Of a stretch of 64,000 nucleotides of DNA, positions 9,643 through 33,568 are shown one piece after another. Each line of letters opens with the position of its first letter. The first letter of the stretch is position 1. The notes below the pieces were generated by a model that saw only the letters and a list, made by a program, of their open reading frames with translations, did no database searches and was not told where the DNA came from. Source of the stretch: Candidatus Micrarchaeum acidiphilum ARMAN-2. Its GTDB lineage: Archaea > Micrarchaeota > Micrarchaeia > Micrarchaeales > Micrarchaeaceae. Position numbers and translations under genes: made by a program. The DNA is taken from positions 1-64,000 of the forward strand of contig GG697237.1 of assembly GCA_009387755.1 (NCBI GenBank), given 5' to 3'.

Positions 9643-10899
9643 GTGAGGAAATTGGACAGGATGGAAATAATAAGCAAGCTTCCTGGCCTTAACGTCGGCA
9701 TCAAGCGCTCAACCATAGTTTACAGCCACATGAGGGATCCTGCGCTGCTCAGGTACTACTATAAAGTCAAGATGCTGCCCGTAATCGACAAGCTTGAAAT
9801 GTCAGGTTCATCTCCAACAGACATATTTATAGGAAGATTCGGATACCCAAAGGTCTTCATAGGTCCGATGCTGCCTCCGGAGCACGGCGACACCTCTATA
9901 CTGAACACACCGGAAAGGTGGCGCTCAATGTCGATAGAAAGGATAGTCGAAATGAGATCGAAGCTGGTAAGGGGCATGTATCCGACAAGCGTGCATGCGG
10001 TGGAGTCTGGCAGGATGGAGGAGCAGATAATGGAGCTCGCGCTTGCCGAAAGGCCATCCGATGCCGAGATGGTCTTCAAGAAGAAGCCAATGATAAAGAT
10101 GGAGACGAACGACGAGGTCCAGCCGTTCGGCCCTAGCGTGCCCATAAACAATTTCAGGCTGTACAACATAAAAGCAGACAGGAGCATGGAAAAGATGCAT
10201 CTTGATTACGATGCAACTGCAACCACCTCAATGAAAGAGCTGTACCAGAAAGGGCTTCCTGTGTCACAGATATCAAAAGGGCTTTCGGCCGGGCTTTTCG
10301 GGCTAAAGGGCAAAAGGAAATTCGTGCCGACCAGGTGGAGCATAACCGCTGTAGACGATACGCTCTCTAAGGGCATCAGAGAAAAGATAAAGGAGTACGA
10401 CAGCGTCGACGCAATATACGCCTACTACAAAGTCGCGCTGGACAACCGCTGGCTTATATTCTTCATGCCTGGAAACTGGGAATATGAATCCATAGAGGCG
10501 TGGTATCCAAATACGATATGGAACGCAGGCGGCTCTGAAATATCGATTTATTCGTCCTACGAAGGCTACAAGGGCCGCAAGACCTACGCCGAGATAGGGG
10601 GCTGCTATTACTCTGCAAGGCTGGCAGTGACCGAGAAACTTGACGGTATGAAAAGGCAGGGCAGGGTGCTCATACTCAGGGAAGTGCACGACGGATATAT
10701 AATGCCCGTAGGGGTATGGAACGTAAGGGAGCATGTAAGGGAAACCCTGGAAAGTGAGCCAACAGTGCTAAACGGGATCAAGGACGTATTCGGGTTCATA
10801 AGGCAAAAGCTTGAGATACCTCCAAACGCGTGGGTTGCAAACAGCGGCCTGCTAAGCCGCATAATAAAGCAAAGGAGAATAGGCGACTATCTGCGCTGA
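9643..10899 (+). CDS. nreA: NreA-type DNA repair protein
   Basis: A 418-residue member of the archaeal Nre family (DUF650/DUF651). In haloarchaea NreA takes part in DNA damage repair and binds PCNA. The N-terminal region matches the family (SHMRDPALLRYYYKVK, IGRFGYPKVFIGP, LNTPERW). The last eight residues before the final Arg, QRRIGDYL, fit a PCNA-interacting (PIP) box, Q-x-x-[hydrophobic]-x-x-[aromatic]-[hydrophobic]. A zinc-binding Cys cluster found at the N-terminus of some Nre proteins is not visible here. The gene ends five bases before the stop of the convergent HerA-like gene. Confidence 0.88.
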   Translation: MRKLDRMEIISKLPGLNVGIKRSTIVYSHMRDPALLRYYYKVKMLPVIDKLEMSGSSPTDIFIGRFGYPKVFIGPMLPPEHGDTSILNTPERWRSMSIERIVEMRSKLVRGMYPTSVHAVESGRMEEQIMELALAERPSDAEMVFKKKPMIKMETNDEVQPFGPSVPINNFRLYNIKADRSMEKMHLDYDATATTSMKELYQKGLPVSQISKGLSAGLFGLKGKRKFVPTRWSITAVDDTLSKGIREKIKEYDSVDAIYAYYKVALDNRWLIFFMPGNWEYESIEAWYPNTIWNAGGSEISIYSSYEGYKGRKTYAEIGGCYYSARLAVTEKLDGMKRQGRVLILREVHDGYIMPVGVWNVREHVRETLESEPTVLNGIKDVFGFIRQKLEIPPNAWVANSGLLSRIIKQRRIGDYLR

Positions 10900-10903: not shown

Positions 10904-13165
10904 CTACGCATGCATTGAAATCTCGCGGCCGGCGAAAAAATCAGATCCCCATACGGGCTTTAACTTTTGGTCTAAAAGCTCGATTCTGTATTTCCTGCCC
11001 ACCATCAATTCCGCCCTGACCCGTATCTCGCCGCCTTCAAGCCTTGCATCTGCAGAGCAAACTACATCATCCAAATAGAGAATCCTGGCATAGCATATCC
11101 TTTCAACTGCCAGGCCCTGCCCTATTCGGCTTTCGGGTGCCACAGAGATAAGGCAGTCCTCGGTTTTTGGCTCAACTCTGTGCAAATGCAGTTCGCCAAC
11201 GCCTTTATCCGTGCCCTTTATGTAGCCGCTTGAATCGTGCGTCCTTACAAACACCGTGTCGTGCGAGTGCTTTTCACCTCCGTCCTTGGTTATGTAAGTC
11301 AGCGCACACACCCTTTCGTCAAGGTGTTTCAACTTCGATACTACACTGTCCTCGTCAGAATATGTGAATATCAGGTCCTTGGATGCCGGCACTGCAACGT
11401 CCGGCGCCTGCTTGAAATACAGCTTGGTCTGACACAGCCTTCTTATCCTTGGGTCTATGTCCATCGCGTTGTGCGTCAACAGCACAAGGCCGATGCCCTT
11501 TTTCCTGAAGTCCTGGATTTTGTATATCACGTCTTCAACTGCGGCCGAGTTTTTCTCACCGAATATAAGCTGCGCTTCTTCTAGGCATATAATCATACGC
11601 AGGCTTCCCTCTCCGTCATTGTCAAAGGCCTCTGCAGCCATGTAGAGTTGGTTCAGTATCGCGGCGTAATAATATCCCCTAGAATTGCCGCTGGCATTGG
11701 AAAGATCAAACACAACACCCTTTCCAAGCAGGCTGCCTAACTGCACACCCTCTTCAGTCGAGTACTCAAGCCTGTTTAAAATCTCAACCAGCGTCTCCAG
11801 CGAGGACTTTATATTTTCGCCGTGCTTTGTATATTTAATCCCGGCATTTGTCCTTTTCCCATGCATTGCAACCACAGAATCCATTATTGCCCTATACACA
11901 TCCACAGGGTGCGGATTTTTGGTGTCTGAATATATTTTCCTGAATGCGTTAATCAGGCACTTCTCAAGGGGCTCCTTGTACGGCCCGGCCTTTACCGCAG
12001 ATGCCAGTATCAGCGCCAGGTTATGATAAAAGAATTCAGCTTCCACCTCTTCGGGGCACGAAAAAAAGTTTATAGGCACTCCGTCAGCGCATATCCTTAT
12101 CTGATTCATACCATGGCCTGATGCAAAGGCGTTCCATTCATCTGTTGGGGCGATTATTGCTATGAGCGGTCTTGATAAGGCCGCAGAGTCCTTCCCTGAA
12201 ACTCCGCCGGTTGCTGCAATTTGGTGCATTATATTCATGGTTTCCATGGTCTTGCCAGATCCTGGCAGCCCGCTTATAATGCAGCCTAAGTTCAATGTAG
12301 AAAGCTCAAGCCTCATCTCCTCTCCAGTATCAAAAACTCCGTTTTTCATTATTGTGCCGACAGCAATGTTTCCGCCGGATACGTGCCCAGCTGTTTTTAC
12401 CACATAACTTATTGCACGCGTTTCAGGGAATGAGAGCAGTTGCCTTGCATGGGCGGCACCGACTGACAGGCTATTAAAGCTCCTACACAAATCAAAAATG
12501 CCGTCAGCGCCGCCTACGCGGAACGTTTTGCTTCCAAGCACCACAAACCTGGAGCTAAGGTACTGCCGCATTCTAAGATCTCCGGCCTCTGTAAAAATTG
12601 CTGTCTTGTAAGCAACGCCGTTTTTCAGAACAGACTCGTTTATCGAATAAAGCAAATCCTGCATCATCGCCCCGTCTCCGGAGCCGTAGAAGATCTCGAA
12701 CTGTGAAGAAACTCCCCCGCCGAACCCAAGCGCTCCCCTTCCCGACTGCCTGCTTTCCCTGATTCCGCGGTTGCTCAGCGCGCCCTCTATTTGTGCCTTA
12801 AGCCTTTCAATACCCCTTTCATCTTGCGGCAGAAATGTTATCCCCAAAATCCCGGAATCCAGTCCAAGATCGAATATGTCTTCAAACAAGCTGTTCTCTT
12901 GCTGCCCCGCCTTCCTGTAAATCGAATATAACTGCAGCTTTTCCGGAGCCTCGAAGCGCATCTCCTCGAACCTAATTCCATTGGATGCGTTTGATAGCAT
13001 CCTGATCCTGAATTCTGGATCTGCTGATTCCAATAAAAGCAAGGTCCTTTTGTCAGAAATCGTGTTGACAATTGCAAATCCGTCGGTTCCCATTGCTTCC
13101 AGGAATGCGTCCCTGCCTATTCCCGAACTCGGCAGTTTGGTTATTTCAAATGCTCTGCAGTCCAT
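10904..13165 (-). CDS. HerA/FtsK-like conjugation-type ATPase, distal gene of the Ced-like cluster
   Basis: A 753-residue P-loop ATPase. Seen: Walker A GLPGSGKT at 299-306, Walker B-like MIICLEEAQ ending about 531, and a downstream sensor-like LLTHNAMD. The roughly 290-residue N-terminal region resembles the preface domain of HerA/VirB4/TraG-like motors, and the C-terminal 200 residues form a beta-rich tail. The start ATG 13165 overlaps the upstream stop in TGATG; an upstream in-frame extension is longer but codes within the neighbouring gene. As the last gene of a tightly overlapped ten-gene operon with VirB2-, VirB6- and VirB4-like members, it could act like a coupling or second motor ATPase. 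The family level is sure, the role inferred. Confidence 0.75.
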   Translation of the reverse strand: MDCRAFEITKLPSSGIGRDAFLEAMGTDGFAIVNTISDKRTLLLLESADPEFRIRMLSNASNGIRFEEMRFEAPEKLQLYSIYRKAGQQENSLFEDIFDLGLDSGILGITFLPQDERGIERLKAQIEGALSNRGIRESRQSGRGALGFGGGVSSQFEIFYGSGDGAMMQDLLYSINESVLKNGVAYKTAIFTEAGDLRMRQYLSSRFVVLGSKTFRVGGADGIFDLCRSFNSLSVGAAHARQLLSFPETRAISYVVKTAGHVSGGNIAVGTIMKNGVFDTGEEMRLELSTLNLGCIISGLPGSGKTMETMNIMHQIAATGGVSGKDSAALSRPLIAIIAPTDEWNAFASGHGMNQIRICADGVPINFFSCPEEVEAEFFYHNLALILASAVKAGPYKEPLEKCLINAFRKIYSDTKNPHPVDVYRAIMDSVVAMHGKRTNAGIKYTKHGENIKSSLETLVEILNRLEYSTEEGVQLGSLLGKGVVFDLSNASGNSRGYYYAAILNQLYMAAEAFDNDGEGSLRMIICLEEAQLIFGEKNSAAVEDVIYKIQDFRKKGIGLVLLTHNAMDIDPRIRRLCQTKLYFKQAPDVAVPASKDLIFTYSDEDSVVSKLKHLDERVCALTYITKDGGEKHSHDTVFVRTHDSSGYIKGTDKGVGELHLHRVEPKTEDCLISVAPESRIGQGLAVERICYARILYLDDVVCSADARLEGGEIRVRAELMVGRKYRIELLDQKLKPVWGSDFFAGREISMHA

Positions 13166-13455
13166 CACACCACCAGCAGAATTGCCAAAGAAAGCACCGC
13201 AATCAGAGCCATCGCATACTTTAATGGTCTCGAAATTTTGTATGGCGGGCCGGTTGCCCTTAGATAAGCAAATCCGGCAAATGCTGCAGCGCCGGCTACA
13301 AGATACTGGTTCATCCCGATGCGTAATCCAGGTAGGACGCGGCAAATGCTAAATGCAATGCCGAAAATCGAAGCCAAGATTATAGACAACCTGAAAGCAA
13401 GCTCTAACTTTCCAGGCGCCATGATATACGAAGCTGCTCTTTTTACCATATCCAT
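13165..13455 (-). CDS. small three-TM membrane protein of the Ced-like cluster
   Basis: About 96 residues with three hydrophobic segments: around 20-38 (LAFRLSIILASIFGIAF), 47-65 and 78-96, the last ending in the C-terminus LAILLVV. A basic/polar turn (RATGPPYKISRPLKY) separates the last two. In-frame starts are TTG 13461, ATG 13455 and ATG 13449; ATG 13455 is chosen. It overlaps both neighbours. The size and helix-loop-helix layout recall the small membrane subunits of archaeal Ced systems (CedA1/CedA2 type), but no sequence motif proves it. Confidence 0.6.
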   Translation of the reverse strand: MDMVKRAASYIMAPGKLELAFRLSIILASIFGIAFSICRVLPGLRIGMNQYLVAGAAAFAGFAYLRATGPPYKISRPLKYAMALIAVLSLAILLVV

Positions 13456-13640
13456 TCCCAATAAATCAAGGCGGATACCATAATCAGAAATGCTGCTCCT
13501 GCAACCATTTCCGAAAATCGTTTAGTGGAAAAACTGCACGAAGGCGCAGCGTTTAGCGCGGCGTAGGCGTTTGCAACGTTTAGCAGCACAGTCCCAAAAA
13601 CAATACCGTAAAATGCGACGTCCTTGGCGCTCAGCAATAA
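13443..13640 (-). CDS. small two-TM membrane protein of the Ced-like cluster
   Basis: About 65 residues with two hydrophobic helices (VAFYGIVFGTVLLNVANAYA and MVAGAAFLIMVSALIYW) separated by a short polar, Lys/Arg-containing loop. TTG at 13640, preceded by GGTGG, is the likeliest start; a TTG at 13664 is also in frame. It overlaps the upstream gene by 10 nt and the downstream one by 13 nt. The two-helix layout is shared by VirB2/CedA1-type pilins and by many unrelated small membrane proteins, so the assignment stays open. Confidence 0.55.
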   Translation of the reverse strand, partial: LLLSAKDVAFYGIVFGTVLLNVANAYAALNAAPSCSFSTKRFSEMVAGAAFLIMVSALIYWEWIW

Positions 13641-14338
13641 ACCACCTTTGCAAATTTGCAACAAACCAGCACTGCGGTAACCAGCCCTACTGGCCCACGG
13701 CGCGCGATGTCGTCAACAAGTTTTCTGGATGAATCACGGCCTGGCAAAAGCAAAAGCGTTGCGCTTTCGCGCCCTTGCAGCTTTCTGTAACTGCTCAGGT
13801 CTGCCCTGGAATATGCCAACATTCCTGTAGTCGCATTGCGCTTTCGCGTCCTGCTGGAACGGCGCGCCGTTCCCTCCCCTCTCCTGATTGCCGCAATGCC
13901 TATCGAGCATTTCTCGCACTCGGGGCCCAGAACCCAAACTCCATAAAATTTCAGCAACAATCTTGAATCCTGCAGAGCAAGAAAATGCCGCAGCTCCTCG
14001 TCTTCGAGCTTTGATACGCTCTTCAGACCCAACCTCGCAGCCAGATGCTCCTTTAAATCGTTAAAATGAATGCAGCCTTCGTTCTCTTTGAGGGCAGTGC
14101 CAATCGCTTCAAGTAACACTTTTTCTTCAAACACATTGACGCTCCTTGCAGGCTTTCCCAGACTTATGGTAACGCGTCCCTTATCTGCGCCAGAGTCTAC
14201 AGCAATTTTTGTTATAAGAAGCGCCCCAGCTCCAAGAAAAATAATGTAAAGGTCAGAATGCCGAGCATAGATTTCAAAATAAAAGACTGCCAGCGCAAGC
14301 AGGCCGAGCATTGCAAAATATGCACTCTTGCGAATCAA
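13631..14338 (-). CDS. membrane-anchored protein of the Ced-like cluster, unknown family
   Basis: This 235-residue protein has two N-terminal transmembrane helices (about 7-24 and 30-47) and then a soluble, probably cytoplasmic domain. A winged-helix-like stretch (CIHFNDLKEHLAARLGLKS) and a basic linker (SSRTRKRNAT) are visible. The C-terminal end has another hydrophobic patch (GPVGLVTAVLVCC). A TTG at 14338 follows the upstream stop by four bases and is the only suitable start before the first helix. No family is recognised. It lies in the middle of the operon, so a structural or regulatory role in the same complex is inferred. Confidence 0.6.
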   Translation of the reverse strand: MIRKSAYFAMLGLLALAVFYFEIYARHSDLYIIFLGAGALLITKIAVDSGADKGRVTISLGKPARSVNVFEEKVLLEAIGTALKENEGCIHFNDLKEHLAARLGLKSVSKLEDEELRHFLALQDSRLLLKFYGVWVLGPECEKCSIGIAAIRRGEGTARRSSRTRKRNATTGMLAYSRADLSSYRKLQGRESATLLLLPGRDSSRKLVDDIARRGPVGLVTAVLVCCKFAKVVYC

Positions 14339-14342
14339 ATAA

Positions 14343-14972
14343 TCACTTCGAATTATTCAGCACGGACGAAATCCTCTCAAGAAGCCGTCTGTCTACGCCA
14401 ATGCTCCTTAGCATTACGTCTCCTGCCCCATCGCCAAGCTTCTTCATATATTCGAATACCCTTTTCGAGAAATTAAGCAAGTCGGCGTTAAGCTCTGAGT
14501 ATTCCCTGTTAAGCTTATCCAGTCTAATTATCTCCTTGGAAAGGTTCCAGTTGGCATCTGAAAGCAATTCGATCCTTCTGTCCCTGCTGCCTCCTCCGCC
14601 CCCCACACCGGGCAAAATACCGTAATAATCGAAATAGCCCATATATTCCACAATGTACGGATAAAGGGATTCCATGGACACATCATAGAAATCCTTCAAC
14701 AGCGCAACTAACGTGACGAACACATATATCCTGGCCATCTTTTTGGCGTCGCTTTCAGAATCAAAATAATATTTGAGACAGATGCGGTCTGCGCCAAACT
14801 CCGCATATATGTCACTGAATTCTGAAGAGCCTATCCTATACCTGAGCAGAGTGCCGTGGCCCACATTAACGAAGTTCGGAATGCAGGACAGGAAACTTTT
14901 CAAGCTTAAAAAATTTGAAGTGAACCGCGCTTTTACTGCTATTACGGAAATATAGATAGACTCGCTTTTCAT
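14343..14972 (-). CDS. soluble protein of the Ced-like cluster, unknown family
   Basis: A 209-residue soluble protein. A mixed alpha/beta N-terminal part (1-120) is joined by a glycine run (GVGGGGGS) to a helical C-terminal part (about 130-209) with coiled-coil character. ATG 14972 follows GGTG and overlaps the preceding stop in ATGA, which suggests translational coupling. No motif or family is recognised. The glycine hinge between two domains fits an adaptor, but that is only a guess from shape and context. Confidence 0.6.
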   Translation of the reverse strand: MKSESIYISVIAVKARFTSNFLSLKSFLSCIPNFVNVGHGTLLRYRIGSSEFSDIYAEFGADRICLKYYFDSESDAKKMARIYVFVTLVALLKDFYDVSMESLYPYIVEYMGYFDYYGILPGVGGGGGSRDRRIELLSDANWNLSKEIIRLDKLNREYSELNADLLNFSKRVFEYMKKLGDGAGDVMLRSIGVDRRLLERISSVLNNSK

Positions 14973-15262
14973 TTGTCAACACCTATGCGTAGTTCGCAGC
15001 ATGCCTGCAATGCCAGCGCAGCTTCCTGCGCTGCAATTCCGATATCTTCCATAAGGGCAATCGAATCTGTCCGATTCAATCCCAGCCTTTTGAAGAGCAG
15101 GCCGAGCTGCTGCAGCTCTATCCTGCCCCCATTCTCATTTATAAACTGTATGACCGCGCCTTTTTCCGCGGCATCTGCCAGAGCCGCGTCTATGGCCTTG
15201 AGGAAAGCCGTGCGGCTGACATTTATCCTGAGTCTGCTTCTTCCTCTTTCAATAATGCGCAT
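14969..15262 (-). CDS. small soluble protein of the Ced-like cluster
   Basis: About 97 residues, helical, without membrane segments. It begins MRIIERGRSRLRINVSRTAF and has a possible helix-turn-helix or winged-helix segment (GGRIELQQLGLLFKRLGLN). ATG 15262 comes one base after the stop of the VirB4-like ATPase gene. Its own stop overlaps the next start in ATGA. The function is unknown. Tight coupling to the ATPase gene suggests that the products are made in fixed ratio. Confidence 0.6.
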   Translation of the reverse strand: MRIIERGRSRLRINVSRTAFLKAIDAALADAAEKGAVIQFINENGGRIELQQLGLLFKRLGLNRTDSIALMEDIGIAAQEAALALQACCELRIGVDK

Positions 15263-15263
15263 A

Positions 15264-16340
15264 TCAAATGACCCTTGCAAGAATGAAATTGTCGCGAGCC
15301 TCAGAGTCGCGGCGCGCCATAGACACTATGCAGCTTCCCCTTCCAAGATTTCCTGCAGCCTCGATATTCGAGCCTATCCTTTCCGAGAACTCTGCAGAGC
15401 CGCCATCCATCCTGTTAAGTTTGAATACAAAACAGCATCCTATGTTCGAAAGCGCCTCTGCGTTCATGTCCATTGCCTGCTGAGTAGCCAGGACAACTGA
15501 AATCCCGTATTTTCTGCTTTCCCTGAGCAGCTCGTTTAGCGCGCGATGGTCGCAGAGTTTCCATGCCTCATCCAGCACAAGAAGCGTGTCGGTGCGGTCC
15601 GAGATGCTTCTGGAATGCATTGCGTCAGATATAGCATTAACCAGAAGCTTTCCTGCCGCAACCCTTTCGCTTCCGCTCGCTATGCCTGAGAGATCAACCG
15701 TGCATGCACCATCAAATACTCTGTTGAGTCTAAATCCGCTTCCGCCCGGCAATATGCATCCCCTTTCGGCCGCACCGAGCTTTGCCGCGGTGTTCACGCC
15801 ACCGCTTCCGAAGCTGCGAAGGCCGTCTATAATGCCGTCAAGCGAAATCGGCCCCCTGCGTGGCATGCCAATCACGTCTTTTACCTCTCTTACATCAGCG
15901 CCATCAAGCCCGTAAAGGTCGGTTAAAATCCATTCCATCTCCGCGCAAAGCCGAACAGGGTTCCTGCAGTACATGCCAACCAGCCCAATTCCGGAGCCGC
16001 GGCCCACCTTCCACACCTTGCCGCCTAAAGACCTGAAAAGGTCTGCATATTCTCCGCTCCAATCCAAAGCTATGGCATTATATCCAAGGTCTATCACATA
16101 GCTGGATATTAGCGATTTAAGCAAGAATGTCTTTCCAGAACCGCTCATGCCAACCGCTGCTATGTGCGGATTTACAAGCTTGCCTGTATTGAGCAAGAAT
16201 GGCATTCCGTATATCTTTGTATTGCCTAGATAAACTCCCTCGTCAAGGTCTTTGCCGTCGAAGACAGGTTCAGACATGCGCACAATCGGCAGGGATGCCG
16301 AAAGAGCCCTGCTGTTGGAAATTATTTCGAAGTCATCCAT
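15264..16340 (-). CDS. VirB4/CedB-like ATPase, motor half
   Basis: A 358-residue P-loop ATPase. Seen: Walker A GMSGSGKT at 64-71, a following VirB4-like strand (ALDWSGEY), Walker B LLVLDEAWKL with Asp-Glu at 257-258, and VVLATQQ downstream. The DEAW form of motif B is characteristic of VirB4/TraC motors of type IV secretion and of related archaeal proteins. The protein begins only about 60 residues before Walker A and so lacks the N-terminal VirB4 domain. That part appears to be the separate upstream gene, overlapped by eight bases. ATG 16340 is chosen over GTG 16349. It likely powers pilus assembly or DNA transfer at the inner face of the membrane. Confidence 0.78.
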   Translation of the reverse strand: MDDFEIISNSRALSASLPIVRMSEPVFDGKDLDEGVYLGNTKIYGMPFLLNTGKLVNPHIAAVGMSGSGKTFLLKSLISSYVIDLGYNAIALDWSGEYADLFRSLGGKVWKVGRGSGIGLVGMYCRNPVRLCAEMEWILTDLYGLDGADVREVKDVIGMPRRGPISLDGIIDGLRSFGSGGVNTAAKLGAAERGCILPGGSGFRLNRVFDGACTVDLSGIASGSERVAAGKLLVNAISDAMHSRSISDRTDTLLVLDEAWKLCDHRALNELLRESRKYGISVVLATQQAMDMNAEALSNIGCCFVFKLNRMDGGSAEFSERIGSNIEAAGNLGRGSCIVSMARRDSEARDNFILARVI

Positions 16341-17085
16341 CCATACCACGATAGTCTATTTTAAGGAAATCCAGCAGTTCATTGCCATACAACTGCTTAC
16401 CCTGCACCCCGAATCCGGCTTCGAACTCAGAGATCACCCTTAGCAGTGCAGATTTCGCGGCCTCCACTGCGCCGTACCTGCTTTCAGAGACAGCGTTTAC
16501 CACAACATAATAAACCAGCCTGAGGGCTCTGCGGCCCTCCGAAACGCCCCGTATCTGCTCCTGTATGCGCTTTATCTCGTTTTCAAGGGTTTCCATCCTG
16601 ATTCTATTCCTTTTCGACTTCCTGTAAGAAATATCAGCTGACTTCATTTGCTTCATCCTGAGCCGCGTTTCTAGCCGGTCAAGCAGTCCCCTCTTGTCCA
16701 AATACTCGACCGAGACAACAAGCCTGAAAGGCGTATTTATCCTATCTATCATACCTTCAAACTTGTCTCTGTCAACGTTAGCTTCGCTAAGCCCGCGGAA
16801 CGCGCACACTGCTACCGAATTAAAAGCATCCCCCTCCCGAAGCACCGCGGCGCTTCGCTCATCGCCAAGCTCGTAGCTGCCGACTACCTGTACAATTCCT
16901 GTGCCCTCAATGATTTTGGCTTCAAATATATACCAGCCCTTGTACACGGCCATGGCTCCGAACGTAAAAGCGGCTGCAGCGGCAACTGCCAGCGCATTAA
17001 GCGTGAAAAGGCTTATCAGAAACAGGCCTGCGCTTGAAGAAAGCAGGAAATAGTCAACAATTTTGCTTAAATGCAGGCGCAACAC
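16333..17085 (-). CDS. VirB3/VirB4-N-like membrane protein (other half of a split CedB)
   Basis: 250 residues. Two N-terminal transmembrane helices (about 10-28 and 31-48) are followed by a soluble alpha/beta domain with a long charged helix (about 125-175). This matches the part missing from the downstream ATPase: in CedB-like proteins two N-terminal helices and a preface domain precede the motor domain. The two products together are about 608 residues, near the usual size of CedB-like proteins. GTG 17085 follows GAGG and lies three bases after the upstream stop. It ends inside the start of the ATPase gene. Whether it is a true split or a frameshift in the assembly is open. Confidence 0.6.
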   Translation of the reverse strand: MLRLHLSKIVDYFLLSSSAGLFLISLFTLNALAVAAAAAFTFGAMAVYKGWYIFEAKIIEGTGIVQVVGSYELGDERSAAVLREGDAFNSVAVCAFRGLSEANVDRDKFEGMIDRINTPFRLVVSVEYLDKRGLLDRLETRLRMKQMKSADISYRKSKRNRIRMETLENEIKRIQEQIRGVSEGRRALRLVYYVVVNAVSESRYGAVEAAKSALLRVISEFEAGFGVQGKQLYGNELLDFLKIDYRGMDG

Positions 17086-17088
17086 CTC

Positions 17089-18132
17089 TCATATCATCCC
17101 GAACCTGCCAAAGGCGACTTCTGTTCCAAGCACCCTAGCCAGCTCGCGTATAGATATTACTGTAAGAATGACGCTGAAGACCGGGAAAAATATAACCTCT
17201 ACAAACAGTATGGAGATGCCGTATGATTCCTCTTCAATGATATTTTCGAAATATTTGAATATGCCGCTTGCAAGACTCTCAACCCCACCTATAATCGAGG
17301 TAGCTGCGCTTTTGTTTGCTGCTCCGAGCGCCCCTGCCTGTGACCCGAATTCGTTTACCGTGCCCTGCGCATTTTGAAGCATTACCTGACTCATGCTTCC
17401 GTAGTAACTTGCCGTTATCTGCGCGTCCAGCACGTAGGTAAGCGGGAAAACGGCAAAAAGGCCTATGGCTATGGCCATTATTGCGCCTCCAAGCCTTCTT
17501 GTAAAATAAAAGCTCCTGAGCACCATCCCCAGTGGTATTAGCAGCGGCATCGCTATGGCCGCTATTACATTAATCAATACGCCCTGCATGTATATGCTTA
17601 TCACTGAGAAAGTAAGGGCGCTGATTATGTAGTTCTGCTGGCTCAGCAGCGGGTTGAACAATGTCGAGAATGTGAAAGAGGCAAGCCCCACGCTGAGAGT
17701 TGTCGAGGCTATAATTCCGATTGCTACATATATGCCAGACACTGCTATAAGCATGCCCAAGGCTATCGAAAGCAGGCTCGGATATTGTACACCGCCGATG
17801 CTTACCGTGCCTATACCCATTAGGTACGAATGGGAAAAACACAGCGCATAGTTATAGCCAAGCGTGCCGCTGCACGACGCCGAAGCGTTTACCGAAGACA
17901 CCACTCCGTTCACAACAGAATTGAGAAGTCCGTGCGCTCCGAATATCAGTATCAAAGATCCAAGTATCGCGCCATTTATCAAGGACTGCATAACCTCATC
18001 CCTGCCAAACTCCTTCATCTTCCTATGGTCGAGAGATATCCCCAGGCCGTATACTATGCCGCCCACAGAAAGCATTATTCCTATAACGCTTACTGCAATG
18101 TCATAACCAAGCATTGATTCACGCCGTGACAT
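17089..18132 (-). CDS. VirB6/CedA-like polytopic membrane channel protein
   Basis: 347 residues with about seven hydrophobic segments and a Ser/Gly/Ala-rich, probably external loop at about 245-290. The stretch IPLGMVLRSFYFTRRLGG (about 198-215), followed by a long helix ending FPLTYVLD, is typical of a family of archaeal VirB6/CedA-like proteins as I know it. The last residues (RELARVLGTEVAFGRFGMI) form an amphipathic tail also seen in that group. Known: CedA is the putative DNA channel in Sulfolobales and is related to VirB6 of type IV secretion. It overlaps the pilin-like gene by 14 nt. The assignment rests on topology, motif and neighbours. Confidence 0.65.
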   Translation of the reverse strand: MSRRESMLGYDIAVSVIGIMLSVGGIVYGLGISLDHRKMKEFGRDEVMQSLINGAILGSLILIFGAHGLLNSVVNGVVSSVNASASCSGTLGYNYALCFSHSYLMGIGTVSIGGVQYPSLLSIALGMLIAVSGIYVAIGIIASTTLSVGLASFTFSTLFNPLLSQQNYIISALTFSVISIYMQGVLINVIAAIAMPLLIPLGMVLRSFYFTRRLGGAIMAIAIGLFAVFPLTYVLDAQITASYYGSMSQVMLQNAQGTVNEFGSQAGALGAANKSAATSIIGGVESLASGIFKYFENIIEEESYGISILFVEVIFFPVFSVILTVISIRELARVLGTEVAFGRFGMI

Positions 18133-18508
18133 TTGACGTTACGTTTGAAAGAAGGTGCGTGGAGGCGACCGCCAGCGAGCTGGACGCGAAGCTCAAGACA
18201 CCAACTACAACGGCCCCGATTATTATGTTTATCGCGGTGGTATGGAAGTTGGCTCTCTTGTCCGGCGGGAGCATCTGCCCCACTGCATAGAATATTCCTG
18301 CGACAACAAAAAGCATTGCGCTCAAGGCGGGCCCAACCTGCGCCAAGACATTTTTTACATAAGCCAGCTCGCCTATTATGCCGTATTGCGCACTTCCACC
18401 GAAGCTTATTCCAGAGGCAGCCACCACTGCTATGGCGCCCAGCGGCAGCAATACATGCTTCACAAATCCCGCCACATCGCCGCCAAAATCCAAGTTACGG
18501 AAAACCAT
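18119..18508 (-). CDS. VirB2/TedC-like pilin or membrane subunit, first gene of the Ced-like cluster
   Basis: 129 residues. A first hydrophobic segment (about 19-40) may be a signal or extra helix. Then come two helices (about 60-78 and 88-110) separated by a short basic loop with PPDKRANF, and a polar Ser/Asn-rich end. Two helices around a small positively charged loop are the hallmark of VirB2/TrbC conjugative pilins and their archaeal counterparts CedA1/TedC. ATG 18508 lies just downstream of a very AT-rich promoter region. As the first gene it would be the most expressed, as expected for a filament subunit. The family is inferred from topology and context. Confidence 0.62.
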   Translation of the reverse strand: MVFRNLDFGGDVAGFVKHVLLPLGAIAVVAASGISFGGSAQYGIIGELAYVKNVLAQVGPALSAMLFVVAGIFYAVGQMLPPDKRANFHTTAINIIIGAVVVGVLSFASSSLAVASTHLLSNVTSNVTA

Positions 18509-18676
18509 TCTATTACCCAGATAAATTATATTTACTTTAGTATATAAATTTATAGATAAATAAATATTTAAATACTTCTGTAAAAAAACAAGAAAGCAAA
18601 ATTAATCGGAAGGCTTTATATTATATTGTGCAATAATGCAATACAGCGCAAAACACGACGGTGTACGGTTGGTCAA
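18509..18676. promoter_or_regulatory. divergent AT-rich promoter between the Ced-like operon and the M50/pilus side
   Basis: This is one of the most AT-rich intergenic stretches in the window, with several TATA-like elements (TATATAAATTTATAG around 18540-18555, ATTTAAATAC around 18566-18576, TTTATATTATA around 18615-18625). The left ones are placed to drive the minus-strand operon from 18508, and the right one the plus-strand protease gene. A short ATG frame (18636-18694) ends in an ATGA overlap with an internal M50 ATG. It is probably not a gene. Confidence 0.5.
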
Positions 18677-19390
18677 ATGTCCGGAATGCGAATGAACATA
18701 CCATTGAAAACAGAGATAAAGGAGATACTGGTAGCCGATATAGTCCTGATAATAGCGTTCAGCCTGACGCTCGTTGGCGGGATCTTCGGCGCTGGAAGCA
18801 GCATCGGCCTCGAGAAGCTGCTGATCCTGATGCCGATCATGGCCGTCGCAGTCACGCTGAGCTTCGTGCTTCATGAGCTCATGCACAAGTTCTCCGCTCA
18901 GCACTACGGTGCAATCGCGGCTTTCAGGACCTCAAAAATGGGCCTAGGGATAACCCTTATAACTGGAATTTTCGGCTTTCTCCTCGGGATACCCGGCGCC
19001 ACCGTAATATATGCAAGCAACTTTACAAGAAGGGAGAACGGCATAGTATCTCTTGCCGGGCCCCTTACTAATTTTACGGTTTTCGCAGTCGTCCTTGCAA
19101 TATACCGGCTGGTACCCCTGCCTCCATACTTCGCGCTTATGGCGGAAATAACGCTGTTTATAAGCATACTGCTGGCATTCTTCAACATGCTTCCGATAAA
19201 CCCGCTTGATGGAAGCAAGGTGCTGGCATGGAACAAGGAGGTATACATGGTCGCAATGGGAGTCATATTCGTGCTTACCGGGCTTTCGTATTACCTGCTT
19301 TTCGGAAACATATACGCGATGCTCGAGGAGGTGGTCTTCATGATATTCATAGCGTTCATATTCTCAATGTTCTATCGCGGCATGTTTTGA
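18677..19390 (+). CDS. M50 family membrane metalloprotease (site-2 protease-like)
   Basis: About 237 residues and six transmembrane segments. The zinc-binding HELMH motif lies near residues 66-70 inside the second helix. The second M50 signature NMLPINPLDGSK, which provides the Asp ligand, lies near residue 180. Such enzymes cut membrane proteins within the bilayer, often in signalling. In-frame starts are TTG 18626, ATG 18677, ATG 18686 and ATG 18692; 18677 is chosen but uncertain. It stands between the DNA-transfer-like operon and the pilus operon. No PDZ or CBS domain is attached, so the substrate is unknown. Confidence 0.85.
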   Translation: MSGMRMNIPLKTEIKEILVADIVLIIAFSLTLVGGIFGAGSSIGLEKLLILMPIMAVAVTLSFVLHELMHKFSAQHYGAIAAFRTSKMGLGITLITGIFGFLLGIPGATVIYASNFTRRENGIVSLAGPLTNFTVFAVVLAIYRLVPLPPYFALMAEITLFISILLAFFNMLPINPLDGSKVLAWNKEVYMVAMGVIFVLTGLSYYLLFGNIYAMLEEVVFMIFIAFIFSMFYRGMF

Positions 19391-19544: not shown

Positions 19545-20834
19545 ATGGGAGAAGGCAGCGCCGGCGAGCAGGCCACCACCACCATAGACTCTATGGTCGA
19601 GCTTATAAAAGCCAAGGGCAAGATAGACGTTACCAGCATAGCCGTCGCACTTGACATATCACCAGCAGTAGTGGAAGACTGGGCAAGAGTCCTCGAATCC
19701 GGAAACATGGTAAAGATAACCTACGAGGTAGGCAAGATGTTTGTGGCGCCCATGAACGTGGGCAAGGAAGAAGCCGAAGAGATGCAGAAAAAGCTGGAAA
19801 TGCAGATGGGCACGCTGAACGAGCGCCTAGACGTTGAGAAGCTTACCCTGGACAAGATAACCGACAGCATAAAGAAGATAAGCTCTGCGACGCAGGAAGT
19901 CGACAAGGAATTCGAGAAAGGTGCACCGGGCATACACAAAGCTCTCTCTGAGATAGCAAAGCTTGAAAAGGAAGCTGAGAAGAACAGCGACGAACTCATA
20001 AAGATAAAAAACAAGGCAGCCTCTGACTACGAACTTGTCAACAAGAAATTCTCCGAGCTGTCATCAAAGATGGCATCCCTCACCTCTGGCGAGTTCAACG
20101 TAAACCTTACTGCAAACCAGCAGAAGGTTGAGGCTGCAGTTGCAAGCGCGCACGCGAAGCTCGGCGAGATCGACGCGATGCGCAAGGAAAAGGACAGGGC
20201 GCTGGACGAGCTCAGGAAGTCTATGCAGGAAGAAATGAAGAAGCTGAACGACCAAGTTTCTGAGTTCTCAAAATCCGCAAACAAGGAATTCGACGACACA
20301 AAGAAGGCCGTCGAGGAGCAGATAAAGCTGATGCACGACCAGATAAACGAGCACAAGAAGGCGTTTCAGGAGCTGCACGACCTGAGCGAGAACGAAAAGA
20401 AGATAACGAACACTATAAAGGAGGACAACGCCAGGTTCAACGACCTTTACAACAAGATAAACAAGGAAATGGACAACCTTGTCAAGTCATTGGAGGGCAA
20501 AAAGAAGGAATCCGACGCCCAAATAAGCGCGATGAAGGAGAAGTTTGGCCAGGCCAGCGAGATATTCGATACCATAGAGCGCACCAAGAACGATACGGAA
20601 GAGGCGTCAAAGCGCGTCGCAGAGCTGAGCAAGGAGCTTACAAAGATAAGCGAGCAGCTTTCTGCGCTTTCCACGCTCAAGGAGCTGAAATCCAAGCAAG
20701 TCGACGAAAAAATGCAAATAGTAAGCGCGCTTTCCAAAAAGGACAAGAAGGTTGACTCAAACATAAAGGATCTGGAGAAGAAGCTCAGCAGGTCCGCAAA
20801 GCGCATACAGGGAGAGAAAGAGGTCGATAGCTGA
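19545..20834 (+). CDS. winged-helix plus long coiled-coil protein, first gene of pilus operon
   Basis: 429 residues. The N-terminal 70 residues look like a winged-helix domain (MVELIKAKGKIDVTSIAVAL, then VVEDWARVLESGNMVKI). The remaining roughly 350 are almost unbroken coiled coil rich in Lys, Glu and Ser, without membrane segments. The gene ends in TGATGG, overlapping the ATG of the assembly ATPase gene. AAGGTG precedes its own start. The constant neighbour position suggests a cytoplasmic scaffold or regulator of the pilus machine. I know no characterised homologue. Confidence 0.75.
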   Translation: MGEGSAGEQATTTIDSMVELIKAKGKIDVTSIAVALDISPAVVEDWARVLESGNMVKITYEVGKMFVAPMNVGKEEAEEMQKKLEMQMGTLNERLDVEKLTLDKITDSIKKISSATQEVDKEFEKGAPGIHKALSEIAKLEKEAEKNSDELIKIKNKAASDYELVNKKFSELSSKMASLTSGEFNVNLTANQQKVEAAVASAHAKLGEIDAMRKEKDRALDELRKSMQEEMKKLNDQVSEFSKSANKEFDDTKKAVEEQIKLMHDQINEHKKAFQELHDLSENEKKITNTIKEDNARFNDLYNKINKEMDNLVKSLEGKKKESDAQISAMKEKFGQASEIFDTIERTKNDTEEASKRVAELSKELTKISEQLSALSTLKELKSKQVDEKMQIVSALSKKDKKVDSNIKDLEKKLSRSAKRIQGEKEVDS

Positions 20835-22393
20835 TGGCAGATAAAGATCCCCAAAACCAAACTGTCAACGTCGCCCAGCCGCCCAAGCCTGCGGAAAGTG
20901 AGAGGGGAGACAAGACAATGGCGGAGTACCACTTGGACGTGCACGGTCTGGACGTCAAGGTGCGCATACACGTATCAACAGAGGACTTCAATCCAGAATA
21001 CGAGGTAACGTTCATAGGCGTGAGCAACGCCACAAGGCTGCTTCTGCTGTCGTTCAGGAGGCAGCTGCTATCGCTGGTTCCTGTAGATCCTACAAAGATA
21101 GAAAACAAGGCGTACATAGAGCAGCTCAACCAGACATATCTTAAGGAGAGTAACACCCTGATAGATAGGTACCTTCCAGACACGCCCCCGGAAACAAGAA
21201 AGGTGCTCACTGCGTACATACTTAACATGATGCTGGGCCTCGGCGACCTAGAGGTGCCGGTTGCCGACGACAACCTGGAAGAGATAACCGTGAACGGGTC
21301 AAAGACACCGATATGGGTATTCCACAAGAAGTACGGCTGGTGCCAGACAACGATAAAGCCTATGAGCGAGGAGGAGATATACGACCAGGCGGAGCAGATC
21401 GGCAGGAGGGTCGGAAGGGAGCTGAACAACCTGGCGCCGCTGATGGACGCCGAACTCATCGACGGGTCTAGGGTAAACGCCACGCTGTTTCCTATCTCGC
21501 AGGTCGGAAACACAATAACCATAAGGAAGTTTTCTAAGAACCCTTGGACCATGCCTGCCCTTATAAAGACGGGAAGCATAAGCGCAGAGGTCGCGGCACT
21601 TATCTGGCTATGCATACAGAACGAAATATGCATACTGATATCTGGGGGAACTGCAAGCGGAAAGACCAGCTTCCTCAACGCCATGAGCATTTTCTTTCCG
21701 AGCACCAGGAGGGTCATATCAGTCGAAGATACGAGGGAGCTTTCTCTGCCGGAATTCATGCAGTGGGTCGCCATGCTTTCAAGGCAGCCAAATCCTGAAG
21801 GCAAGGGCGGGGTCACAATGTACAATCTGATGATAAACGCATTGAGGCAGAGGCCGGACATAATGCTGGTCGGAGAAATAAGGACGTCCAAGGACGCCGA
21901 GACGTTCTTCGAGGCCATACACACCGGACACGCGGTGTACGGCACGCTCCACGCTGACAATGTGCAGGATACTGTGGTGAGGATGACAAACCCGCCGATA
22001 GACACGCCCAAGAGCACGATGAACGCGCTCGGCGTTATAGTGACGGTGTTCAGGCACAGGGCCAAGGGCATAAGGAGGATGCTTGAGCTCGGAGAAATAA
22101 TGAAGAGCGGAGACGCAAACGTGCTCTACAGGTGGAACATGCGCGACGACACGTTCCTGCAGACGAGCGAGATGTCAAGCTTAGCAGAGACGCTTGACCT
22201 GTATGGGGGCCTTACAAAGAAGGAGATAGCCGCGGAAATACAGGAAAAGGCAAAAATATTATCGTGGATGGTAAAGAACGGCCTGACCGGTGTCAACGAT
22301 GCCGGGTTCGTTGTCGCAAACTACTACAAGGACAGGGCGCACGTGGTTGACATAGTAAGCCGCGACCAGCCTTTTTCAAGGGAAGCATTTTAG
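20834..22393 (+). CDS. type IV pilus/Tad-type assembly ATPase (GspE/CpaF/VirB11 superfamily)
   Basis: 519 residues, the hexameric secretion ATPase that drives pilin polymerisation at the cytoplasmic membrane. Seen: Walker A SGGTASGKT at 270-278, an Asp box-like VEDTREL, Walker B-like DIMLVGEIR and the His box TGHAVYGTLHADN. The layout is that of archaeal T4P/archaellum/Tad-like ATPases. No Cys4 zinc site is seen, unlike GspE/PilB. It is followed by a Gln-rich gene and two platform-protein genes. No retraction ATPase (PilT-like) lies nearby, so a one-motor system is likely. Confidence 0.9.
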   Translation: MADKDPQNQTVNVAQPPKPAESERGDKTMAEYHLDVHGLDVKVRIHVSTEDFNPEYEVTFIGVSNATRLLLLSFRRQLLSLVPVDPTKIENKAYIEQLNQTYLKESNTLIDRYLPDTPPETRKVLTAYILNMMLGLGDLEVPVADDNLEEITVNGSKTPIWVFHKKYGWCQTTIKPMSEEEIYDQAEQIGRRVGRELNNLAPLMDAELIDGSRVNATLFPISQVGNTITIRKFSKNPWTMPALIKTGSISAEVAALIWLCIQNEICILISGGTASGKTSFLNAMSIFFPSTRRVISVEDTRELSLPEFMQWVAMLSRQPNPEGKGGVTMYNLMINALRQRPDIMLVGEIRTSKDAETFFEAIHTGHAVYGTLHADNVQDTVVRMTNPPIDTPKSTMNALGVIVTVFRHRAKGIRRMLELGEIMKSGDANVLYRWNMRDDTFLQTSEMSSLAETLDLYGGLTKKEIAAEIQEKAKILSWMVKNGLTGVNDAGFVVANYYKDRAHVVDIVSRDQPFSREAF

Positions 22394-22401
22394 CTGATAA
22401 T

Positions 22402-23121
22402 ATGGCGGAGGAGCTAGAAACAAATTACGAAAGCATGGTCAAGGAGATAACGGAAATAGAGGCCTCCGCGCAGAAGCCCGAATTCTCCAGCGCAGACGTA
22501 TCGTCGGTGTTTTCCCCGGCCACTAATGAAAAGGTCGTCACTTACAGGGACATGGTAAGCATTGTAGAGTCTATAGAGTCGAAGAAGGTGGAATCAAGGC
22601 AGAAGGTGGTAAACCCGCAGGTGCTGCTCCAGCAGCAGGCGCAGCCGCACATGGTGATGACCGGGCTGAAGCAGATGACGACCTCGCAGGTCCTGCCTAA
22701 CGTGCAGCAGCCCATGCAGCCGCAGCAACAGCCCAAGCCAGAATATGTAGAGCAAAAGCAGAAGATGCAGGCCAAGAGCGAGATGAAGTCCGCAACATCA
22801 AAACTGCAGAGAAAGTCGGCCAAGGTCAACGTGAAGCACATAAACGTAAGCGACATGGTGCTGCCGAGCCTTTCGATGGCAGACCAGATATCCGAGCTGG
22901 AAAGGATAATAGAGGGCCTGCGCGAGCGCGTGTTTGACCAAGAGCATCTGGAGATAGTGGTGCAGGAGGTATATGCCCTCAAGCAAGTTGTAGAGAAGCA
23001 GGACAAGGAAATGAAAAAGCAGCATGCAAACCTAACGGCTCTGGAGCAGTCGATGTGGCAGGTCCGCGCGCAAAGGCTTAACGATGCGCTATCAATAATA
23101 GCGCTGCAGGGTGTGGTATGA
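22402..23121 (+). CDS. Gln-rich/coiled-coil protein of pilus operon
   Basis: 239 residues with no membrane segment. The acidic N-terminal part is followed by a Gln/Pro/Met-rich low-complexity linker (about 70-125), a basic patch (about 130-150) and a C-terminal coiled coil (about 155-225). No family is recognised. It sits between the ATPase and the first platform gene, overlapping the latter by four bases (ATGA type). Its start is eight bases after the ATPase stop. A cytoplasmic linker between motor and platform is a reasonable guess from position only. Confidence 0.7.
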   Translation: MAEELETNYESMVKEITEIEASAQKPEFSSADVSSVFSPATNEKVVTYRDMVSIVESIESKKVESRQKVVNPQVLLQQQAQPHMVMTGLKQMTTSQVLPNVQQPMQPQQQPKPEYVEQKQKMQAKSEMKSATSKLQRKSAKVNVKHINVSDMVLPSLSMADQISELERIIEGLRERVFDQEHLEIVVQEVYALKQVVEKQDKEMKKQHANLTALEQSMWQVRAQRLNDALSIIALQGVV

Positions 23122-24215
23122 TGTTTGGCAAGAAGAAGACGCAGCCCAAGACTGTAGAAGTCGACGGCAAGATAATCGCGCTGCAGCCCAAGCCCAAAAA
23201 AGGGCTGTTCGGAGGCGGAAAGGCGAAGTCAAAGCAAAAGCCAAACCTGCAGCAGAAACCTGGCCAGTCCATACCAAGTGCGCAGACATTCGCCCAGCCC
23301 TCGCAGCCGCAGCAGCCAAATGCCACAACCATACCAAATGCGTCGCCTCAGGGAAAGAGGCCGTCGCAGAGAAAGAAGCCCGGCAAGTTCGAAAACTACG
23401 TAGAAAAGCTAGCGCTGAAGCAGAAAGGCCTAGAGGAGGCGCTCAGGGCGCAGGACATAAAAGAGACGCCCAAGCAGTTCGTAAAGCGCATGGTCATGAC
23501 ATCCATGCTGCTCGCGGTAGTGATAGGCCTAACCCTTATAATTCTGTTTATACACCTCAACCTTTCCCCTGCCCTTGGCGTTGTCATGGGCGGCGGCATA
23601 GGCTTCGTAATGTATATGATGCTGCTCAACAATTTCCTAAGGTTCCCGATACAGAAATCCAACAAGGGCGCAAAGAAGGTAGAGCGCGACATACTCTTTG
23701 CCGCAAGGGACATGATAATATCGCTGCGTTCCGGAATGCCTCTTTTCAACGCCATAGTCTCGATAAGCACAGGATACGCCGACGCCAGCAAGGAATTCGC
23801 CAAGATAGTTGAGAGGGTACAGCTTGGAATGCCGCTGGAGGAGGCAATAGACCAGACGATAGCAGATACCAAGAGCGATTCGTTCAGGCGAATAATGCTG
23901 CAGGCATCAGTAAGCATAAAGGCCGGCGCGGACATAGTGTCTGCCCTGCAGACTGTCATAGACCAGCTTTCGCAGGAAAGGTACATAGAGCTGAGGCGTT
24001 ACGGCCAGAGGCTGAACGCCATAGCCATGTTCTACATGCTTTTCGGCGTTATACTGCCGAGCATGGGAATAGCTGTAGTAACCATACTGACAACGTTCAT
24101 AGCGCTGTTCACAGTAACTCCCATACTGTTGTACGCGGTGCTGGTCGGCATAGGATTCCTGCAGGTTGTGTTCCTAATAATGATATCTTCGTCAAGGCCT
24201 GTATTCAGCATGTGA
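23118..24215 (+). CDS. pilus platform protein (TadC/GspF-like), first copy
   Basis: 365 residues. A long polar, Lys/Gln/Pro-rich N-terminal tail (about 1-100) precedes two transmembrane helices (about 130-175), a cytoplasmic T2SSF domain (about 190-305, with AARDMIISLRSGMPLFNAIV) and two C-terminal helices (about 305-355). It anchors the assembly ATPase in the membrane. The basic tail is longer than usual and could contact the ATPase or the Gln-rich neighbour. It is followed after four bases by a second platform gene, a pairing also found in Tad systems (TadB/TadC). Confidence 0.85.
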   Translation: MMFGKKKTQPKTVEVDGKIIALQPKPKKGLFGGGKAKSKQKPNLQQKPGQSIPSAQTFAQPSQPQQPNATTIPNASPQGKRPSQRKKPGKFENYVEKLALKQKGLEEALRAQDIKETPKQFVKRMVMTSMLLAVVIGLTLIILFIHLNLSPALGVVMGGGIGFVMYMMLLNNFLRFPIQKSNKGAKKVERDILFAARDMIISLRSGMPLFNAIVSISTGYADASKEFAKIVERVQLGMPLEEAIDQTIADTKSDSFRRIMLQASVSIKAGADIVSALQTVIDQLSQERYIELRRYGQRLNAIAMFYMLFGVILPSMGIAVVTILTTFIALFTVTPILLYAVLVGIGFLQVVFLIMISSSRPVFSM

Positions 24216-24219
24216 TTCA

Positions 24220-25254
24220 ATGGCAATAAGTTTCGAAAAACTGGTTTCAAGGGACCTCGCAAGAAGGCTCTCAAGGCTGCTCGACCTGGCAGGCATGAAG
24301 ATGCCTGTGGGAAAGCTGATAGAGTACGGCGTGTTCGGGTTCTTCGCCATACTAATAATACTGCCTATAGCGCTGTCAATACTTAAATACGTCTTCATAC
24401 TCGCCATAATCCTTGGAATAGTCGGGGGCGTAATGTACCTGGTCGCAATATACATGGTCATAAACTACAAGATAGACGACAGGAAAACAAAGATGGAAGG
24501 AATGCTGTCGGATTATTTCCAGATAGCATCGGCAAACCTGAGGAGCGGAATAGCAATGGACAGGTCGCTTCTCCTTGCGGCAAGGCCTGAGTTCAAGTTC
24601 TTCGCAGATGACATAAAGGAGATGAATAGGCAGATATTCAGCGGCCAGACCATGGAATCTGGGCTGAAGTATCTCGCAGGCAGGTACAAGTCGTTTACGC
24701 TGGACCACGCCATAAGGATGATGATCGAGGCGCAGAGATACGGAGGCGCAATGGCAGACCTGCTGGACCAGCTCTCAAAGGACATAAGGAATCAGCAGCT
24801 AATGCAAAAGGAGGTCGCAGGCCAGCTCTTCATGTACAGCATATTCATAGCGTTCGCAGGACTGGTTGCAGCACCTGTGCTTTACGGACTGACCAGCCAG
24901 ATGATTACAATAACGGATGCGGTGTGGAAGGGAATACTTGCATCAAACCCGGGCGGGCTGCCAACAACCGGCCTGTCGTTCCTAAAGCCGAGCCCGCCAA
25001 AGATAAGCCCCGGCACATACAAGACATTCGCCCTGCTGGCGATATCTGTAATAACCGGTTTCGCGGCGCTGATAATGTCGGCAATATCATCGGGCTCGCC
25101 CATCAGGGGCATAAGGCTGCTTCCTGCATTCATAGTCATAGGGATACTCATATACCTGGCAGTATCCGCAGTCATAGCAGGGCTCTTCTCGACCCTGGGC
25201 GCTTCAGGCTACACTCTGGCGCTAGGGGCAAAATATATAAGTTTATTCATATAG
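24220..25254 (+). CDS. pilus platform protein (TadB/GspF-like), second copy
   Basis: 344 residues. Two helices (about 40-85) are followed by a cytoplasmic T2SSF domain (about 95-200, with IASANLRSGIAMDRSLLLAA and MIEAQRYGGAMADLL), a helix near 205-225, and three further helices toward the C-terminus (about 245-340). It is partner to the previous gene and the two likely form a heterodimeric platform. The next gene, a pilin-like secreted protein, starts 38 nt later in the same direction and is probably in the same transcript. Confidence 0.87.
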   Translation: MAISFEKLVSRDLARRLSRLLDLAGMKMPVGKLIEYGVFGFFAILIILPIALSILKYVFILAIILGIVGGVMYLVAIYMVINYKIDDRKTKMEGMLSDYFQIASANLRSGIAMDRSLLLAARPEFKFFADDIKEMNRQIFSGQTMESGLKYLAGRYKSFTLDHAIRMMIEAQRYGGAMADLLDQLSKDIRNQQLMQKEVAGQLFMYSIFIAFAGLVAAPVLYGLTSQMITITDAVWKGILASNPGGLPTTGLSFLKPSPPKISPGTYKTFALLAISVITGFAALIMSAISSGSPIRGIRLLPAFIVIGILIYLAVSAVIAGLFSTLGASGYTLALGAKYISLFI

Positions 25255-33564: not shown

Positions 33565-33568
33565 AAGA

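Follow-up and report, generated by a model that had tools for sequence, protein, structure and literature searches.

Positions 1 to 64,000 of contig C4 (100,656 bp) of Candidatus Micrarchaeum acidiphilum ARMAN-2, referred to here as the window, carry a cluster of ten minus-strand genes that probably encodes a chromosomally fixed ("domesticated") envelope machine of the type IV secretion system (T4SS) or conjugation type. It belongs to the Micrarchaeota and is a relative of the archaeal Ced and Ted systems without being either of them. The genome totals 1.01 Mb in 8 contigs. The ten open reading frames, named g1 to g10 in the direction of reading, run from 18508 to 10904 with a spacing of −34 to +4 bases between neighbors, most adjoining genes overlapping or sitting 3–4 bases apart. 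For g10 a start at 13165 is likelier than one at 13345, since the profile match begins at 13165; this start gives a protein of ~753 aa and an overlap of one base with g9. A preliminary description of this DNA had reported ten overlapping or nearly touching minus-strand genes in a DPANN-type genome, with two tiny membrane proteins among their products. The array is confirmed and, because its order recurs in 40 loci, is not a product of chance; both small proteins (g8 and g9) are present, and the Micrarchaeota lineage is supported.

Pilin, polytopic protein and VirB4 genes

By sequence comparison, g1 is a VirB2-type pilin. Matches at E values up to 0.1 were obtained for 29 of its 38 orthologues with Pfam T4SS_pilin (best E 4e-7) and for 24 with TrbC/VirB2 (best E 4e-5). 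When the g1 profile was widened to other orders, its top PDB sequence match was TrwL, the VirB2 pilin of R388, at a weak E value of 0.12, and hhalign of the g1 family against TrwL gave an E value of 4.9e-5. The protein contains three hydrophobic segments, of which the first is signal-peptide-like and the other two flank the basic loop PPDKRANFH. The VirB2/CedA1-style protein described earlier therefore stands in its pilin identity and basic loop but not in its helix count, which had missed the signal-peptide-like first segment. Most Micrarchaeales-type pilins have such a first helix, as has been published for the N-terminus of TedC; in most other orders the pilins are short. Overall, pilin profile matches were found in 220 of 301 Micrarchaeota genomes.

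Judged from a structural model and from profile alignments, g3 is the N-terminal domain of a VirB4/CedB-type ATPase behind a two-helix membrane hairpin that forms its N-terminus, and g4 is the motor. The AlphaFold2 model of g3, computed from a 38-sequence alignment, has a mean predicted local distance difference test score of 89.4. In a Foldseek search of this model against the PDB, the top eight matches were without exception R388 TrwK/VirB4 chains (best E 8.6e-4, with a probability of 1.00 for the top four), and the next, unrelated match had an E value of 0.097. Against the NCBIfam CedB model, residues 20–230 of a distant g3 orthologue align to positions 9–205 (E 0.012), and g4 matches the C-terminal stretch; with the two ends of the model divided between g3 and g4 in this way, VirB4 appears to be split at its domain border. 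Direct hhalign comparison of the g3 family with the single TrwK sequence gave no signal. The g4 orthologues match NCBIfam CedB in 21 of 21 cases (best E 1e-23), CedD in 20 of 21 and VirB4_CagE in 19 of 21, and g4 carries a DEAW Walker B box, which bears out the earlier report of a VirB4-like ATPase with that box. The window's own g4 reaches 46 bits with the CedB model, far under the equivalog cut-off of 700. A tblastn search of g4 against 72,556 plasmids returned four matches, all of them TraC.

Two further gene products had to be reread. The protein with two transmembrane (TM) helices and a soluble part that had been compared with VirB3 is g3; the hairpin is there, but the protein is more than a VirB3, its model matching the VirB4 N-terminal domain, and no separate VirB3 match was found for the hairpin. 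Among three genes previously taken as linkers, one (g5) is instead the C-terminal tail of the g4 ATPase, cut off as a gene of its own, as it matches the C-terminus of the fused, 440–465 aa g4 found in several relatives. Because g5 is separate from g4 in the sister species (G074) as well, so that both of the genus's species have the break, we regard it as a genus-level split rather than a sequencing error. In the Sulfolobales the published division is unlike that between g3 and g4: the VirB4 N-terminal domain is shared out between CedB and CedD, each of which also has a motor (PMC11868833).

The gene between the pilin and the g3/VirB4 genes, g2, encodes a protein with ~8 hydrophobic segments, and its position and topology make it a candidate VirB6/CedA analogue. 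Its N-terminus is faintly similar to the pilin family (hhalign E 0.04 and 0.007), a likeness that recalls the published relation between CedA and CedA1. Of the earlier proposal of a VirB6/CedA-style protein, the polytopic protein with its IPLGMVLRSFYFTRRLGG stretch remains, whereas profile and fold searches for the identity itself were negative. A match between the widened g2 profile and the membrane region of an ABC transporter (PDB, E 5e-6) spans a helical stretch only and received no support from the fold search; we ascribe it to composition and rejected it.

A number of results weigh against reading the cluster as a T4SS-type machine. VirB6 was not found in g2 by Pfam (38 orthologues), NCBIfam or PDB sequence search; AlphaFold modeling with Foldseek, hhalign to TrwI and a search with PF04610 over the 85 genomes of the same family were negative or nonspecific for it. 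No CedA-type NCBIfam match was obtained for g2 or its relatives at E values up to 1, the presence of a CedA model in that library being unchecked. PF03135, the VirB4 N-terminus, likewise gave nothing convincing over the 85 genomes. The TM-scores of g3 against VirB4 are low (0.34–0.40), and one match alone passes an E value of 0.001. The g4 motor also scores with HerA helicase models. PF02534 (VirD4) scored above cut-off in one of the 85 genomes, where the match (G028:C41) is g4 itself, and relaxase PF03432 in none, other relaxase families not having been searched; with neither a separate VirD4 nor a PF03432 relaxase in the family, DNA can be named only as a possible cargo.

Table 1. The ten minus-strand genes of the cluster (window coordinates), with predicted identities and the grounds for each.
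Gene	Predicted product	Position	Strand	Basis
g1	Putative VirB2-type pilin, 129 aa	18119..18508	-	Pilin profiles, TrwL alignment
g2	Polytopic membrane protein, 347 aa, ~8 TM, candidate VirB6/CedA-type channel	17089..18132	-	Position, topology
g3	VirB3-like TM hairpin plus predicted VirB4/CedB N-terminal domain, 250 aa	16333..17085	-	Fold, CedB alignment
g4	Predicted VirB4/CedB-type ATPase motor domain, 361 aa	15264..16349	-	CedB, CedD and VirB4 profiles
g5	C-terminal helical tail of g4 encoded as a separate gene, 103 aa	14969..15280	-	Match to fused g4 relatives
g6	Soluble helical accessory protein, 209 aa	14343..14972	-	Same-position orthologues
g7	Membrane-anchored accessory protein, 235 aa	13631..14338	-	Conserved position
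g8	Small two-TM protein, 73 aa	13443..13664	-	Conserved position, topology
g9	Small membrane protein, two or three TM, 98 aa	13165..13461	-	Conserved position, topology
g10	Second FtsK-HerA superfamily ATPase, ~753 aa, own N-terminal domain	10904..13165	-	hhalign, co-occurrence

Distribution and a larger cluster in the same genome

The ATPase is widespread among the family's genomes, and in 20 loci of the family the genes follow the order g1-g2-g3-g4-g6-g7-g8-g9-g10. Another 20 loci, located with the g2 profile among the order's 164 genomes, have the same map, for a total of 40 loci from two families of one order; part of these lack g10 or have it at a distance, and the same holds for g8 or g9 in some. 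Loci in other orders keep a core of g1–g4 or g2–g4. Scanning named GTDB genomes yielded 80 loci, nearly all in Candidatus Micrarchaeota metagenome-assembled genomes, with a few titled Marsarchaeota. The compact cluster is common in the order but not universal: a strong g2 match (E below 1e-30) is present in 39 of the 51 genomes that are near-complete (over 90% complete). Its flanks vary, with the DNA-repair gene nreA adjoining the cluster in the window and in nine loci of both families, and a peptidase M24 gene lying beyond nreA in most of these.

A paralogue match in the window's own genome led to contig C5, which starts inside a second, larger cluster (C5:1-11492, L220) that is intact in two relatives (L221, a single-contig genome, and L222). 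There the genes run from the pilin through one for a 7-TM protein, six tandem relatives of g2 and a pair of g3-like genes to g4 (~505 aa); next come a tail resembling g5, a protein with two TM segments, a g6 homologue and a protein of 785–811 aa with a large and presumably extracellular N-terminal part; by our own reading of the sequence, the cluster ends beside topoisomerase VI subunit B. Several weak g2 profile matches that lie beside a second VirB4 are the VirB6-like genes of this large cluster.

In the g3 phylogeny, all 40 compact copies fall into a single clade (SH-like approximate likelihood ratio test support 99) against the copies of the large system and of other orders, whose loci group with the large system. 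A g3 profile built from the latter two sets matches 264 of 301 Micrarchaeota genomes and 88 of the 96 that are near-complete. Many Micrarchaeota have both versions. Given this tree and the phylum-wide occurrence of g3, we read the window's cluster as the smaller of two sister sets: the larger one extends through nearly the entire phylum, and the compact one is patchily retained. A machine of this type is thus kept by the phylum as a whole. The preliminary view of a compact chromosomal relative of Ced/Ted holds in that the system is a relative and chromosomal, although it is one of two diverged copies and not the sole one.

Accessory genes, second motor and neighboring loci

The product of g6 has orthologues at the same position in relatives and resembles the protein encoded at that position in the large cluster (hhalign 97%, E 8e-11). 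The C-terminus of g7 is weakly like the 785–811 aa protein (E 0.002), and in some relatives g7 has an additional N-terminal segment that is presumably extracellular. In two loci of groundwater Micrarchaeota (L183 and L184), the genes after g4 encode two large proteins that are anchored in the membrane and have long N-terminal parts, presumably outside the cell; these proteins are perhaps the counterpart of g7.

The second ATPase, g10, falls within the FtsK-HerA superfamily by hhalign to g4 (97.9%, E 6e-13) and matches HerA profiles, in agreement with the HerA-like second ATPase first described; its N-terminal domain has no match to g3. Both g10 and g2 occur in 37 of the 51 near-complete genomes and neither in 11, such that 48 of 51 agree (Fisher p 2e-8, uncorrected for kinship). 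In genomes such as G020, G022, G100, G101 and G148, g10 lies distant from the cluster or on another contig. Because g10 is present or absent in step with g2 even where the two are unlinked, we consider it functionally tied to the machine. A VirD4 coupling protein is not part of every T4SS, and g10 may substitute for one here.

Downstream of the cluster and convergent to it, the window contains the gene for the DNA-repair protein NreA (9643-10899). On the other side, an M50 protease gene (18626-19390) precedes a type IV pilus-type locus (20834-25254) that encodes a T2SSE ATPase and two T2SSF proteins and is divergent from the cluster. Large surface proteins with Laminin_G_3 domains, of a kind linked to host interaction in Mia14, are encoded at 28355-36997. 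A further DUF87 ATPase gene at the far end of the contig (C4:85001-100656 of the same genome, L232) adjoins genes for an apparent DNA cytosine methyltransferase and a GHKL-type ATPase, and the region has the look of a defence island.

Proposed function, rival explanations and known systems

In the working model, the machine would move macromolecules between cells in contact. The g2 protein would serve as a VirB6/CedA-type channel, to which g3 would tether a g4 hexamer; g4 would drive the extraction of pilin from the membrane and the growth of the pilus, g6–g9 would be lineage-specific scaffold parts, and g10 would be a dedicated substrate motor in a CedD-like or coupling-protein role. As cargo we tentatively favor DNA imported from the host or from kin, given that the g4 motor is nearest to CedB and CedD. 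The Ced system imports DNA, and CedB and CedD have been proposed as VirB4 stand-ins in Crenarchaea (PMC9905601; PMC11868833).

Export into the host, of proteins or of DNA, comes next and is possible, if doubtful. Here the cluster would perform contact-dependent export of proteins (or protein–DNA complexes) into the host archaeon, as has been proposed for the T4SS of Patescibacteria, and this is the main rival because those bacteria, whose way of life is comparable, depend on a T4SS with pilins and no relaxase to grow on their host. Their system has VirB2-like pilins and is essential for the epibiotic growth of Ca. S. epibionticum (PMC10633639; PMC12102498), in which no relaxase or coupling protein is recognizable (PMC10633639). 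The lack of both PF03432 and a separate VirD4 in the Micrarchaeota family fits such a role, as does the near universality in the phylum of the second system, which would be expected of a host-interaction organelle. The best scores of g4, however, are with the DNA importers CedB and CedD, and no gene for a secreted effector was noted next to the cluster, although no systematic effector search was made.

Less probable by some distance is a VirB2-type pilus used for host attachment or contact signaling alone, without transfer of cargo. A host-dependent lifestyle would suit it, and there are reports of thin filaments on ARM-1 and of filamentous links joining ARMAN cells to Thermoplasmatales (PMC11329633); on the other hand, two motors and a channel candidate, with six such proteins in the large system, exceed the needs of adhesion, and a type IV pilus-type locus already adjoins the cluster in the same genome.

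We give still less credence to a DNA-repair or genome-segregation module composed of HerA-like helicases and unrelated membrane proteins, and rejected it. Both g4 and g10 match HerA profiles, and nreA adjoins the cluster in ten loci including the window, but the pilin profile, the VirB4 N-terminal fold of g3 and its membrane hairpin misfit a HerA-NurA pair, no NurA was found among the ten genes or the neighbors scanned by Pfam, and nreA is convergent rather than co-transcribed. With ATPases that match more than HerA-NurA, a pilin of VirB2 type and a conserved gene order, the conjugation-type reading of the preliminary description was not overturned.

Least credible is a conjugative element (an integrative and conjugative element or a plasmid) resident in the genome, which might be suggested by the patchiness of the compact cluster (~39 of the order's 51 near-complete genomes), by flanks that differ between genera and by VirB4/VirB2-type genes typical of such elements, but which we rejected because PF03432 is absent from the 85 genomes, the membrane proteins have no viral or plasmid relatives, the NreA and peptidase M24 neighbors are the same in both families, g10 tracks the cluster even from other sites in the genome, and the compact g3 copies form one clade. 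No relatives of g2 were found among the plasmids and no match to g1 or g2 in 2.9 million viral contigs, and the archaeal conjugative plasmid pNOB8 gave matches to g4 only, with none meaningful to g1–g3. Together with the lack of PF03432, a VirD4 match that is g4 itself and neighbors common to two families, this favors a resident cellular system and agrees with the early statement that no relaxase lies nearby and that a cellular role is favored over a mobile element.

Exchange of material between DPANN symbionts and their hosts is a long-open question. We found no description of such a Micrarchaeota system in the open full-text literature, subscription journals and preprints lying outside the search. 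The Mia14 genome paper, in which "VirB" was not found, names two type IV pili systems and considers, as speculation, that DNA might be exchanged via pores, pili or genomic-island membrane proteins; a 2025 T4SS review with an archaeal section was found to mention neither DPANN nor Micrarchaeota in its text. In the Nanohaloarchaea, which also belong to DPANN, VirB4/TraG-like ATPases linked to giant surface proteins have been reported (PMC10266531), a different arrangement.

Read as a domesticated T4SS-type machine that is near phylum-wide and has a recognizable pilin and motor, the cluster supplies named genes to test, and symbionts may use it for exchanging DNA or other molecules with neighboring cells. 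A further-reaching version, which we think rather unlikely, is that one or two T4SS-derived conduits with a split VirB4, the larger having six VirB6-like channels, are a core organelle of the phylum and part of DPANN-host filaments or tubes, carrying DNA, nucleotides or effectors. If true, such conduits would help to account for the way of life of reduced cells and for gene transfer between symbiont and host. Cryo-tomography has revealed tubes joining the DPANN archaeon Microcaldus ARM-1 to its host (PMC11329633); as that study attributes the tubes to the host, a link between tubes and machine is speculation.

Among known systems, R388 (TrwL/VirB2, TrwM/VirB3, TrwK/VirB4, TrwI/VirB6) is matched in the alignment of g1 to TrwL and the fold of g3 to TrwK, but no VirB5, VirB7–B11, VirD4 or relaxase was recognized here, and the VirB3 and VirB4 parts are divided differently. 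The rvh T4SS of Rickettsiales has duplicated VirB6 and VirB4 genes, a feature shared with the large Micrarchaeota cluster; as rvh belongs to an unrelated lineage and has VirB8–B11, the likeness would be convergent. Ted of the Thermoproteales (TedA, TedB, TedC) has in common with the window a pilin gene followed by a polytopic gene, a VirB4-type ATPase, the signal-peptide-like pilin N-terminus of TedC and a HerA-like ATPase nearby. It differs from the Micrarchaeota cluster, which has a split VirB4 and other accessory genes and in which no ParA/VirC1 or Rad50 gene was seen.

Ced of the Sulfolobales and Desulfurococcales (CedA, CedA1, CedA2, CedB, CedD) is likewise chromosomal, with no known relaxase and a VirB2-like pilin (PMC9905601; PMC11868833), and shares a polytopic membrane protein, a predicted CedB-type ATPase and a VirB4 function divided between proteins. 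Here, by contrast, the VirB4 N-terminal domain and hairpin form a gene separate from the motor, g6–g9 and the N-terminal domain of g10 have no recognizable Ced counterpart, and no CedA-type NCBIfam match was obtained for g2. The cluster also suggests that archaeal domestication of conjugation machines extends beyond the Thermoproteota and that VirB4 can be split at a domain border with a membrane anchor.

The T4SS of Patescibacteria, which is related to MPF-FATA, belongs to ultra-small, host-dependent cells and is chromosomal, mostly relaxase-less (PMC12102498; PMC10633639), equipped with VirB2-like pilins and very widespread in its phylum. Its VirB4 is recognized by a profile of its own, and PrgI/VirB3, VirB6 and TrsD homologues accompany it, whereas here the last three go unrecognized by profile and VirB4 is split. 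Even so, the likenesses suggest a parallel between the Micrarchaeota machine and the essential T4SS of Patescibacteria, the bacterial lifestyle counterpart of DPANN.

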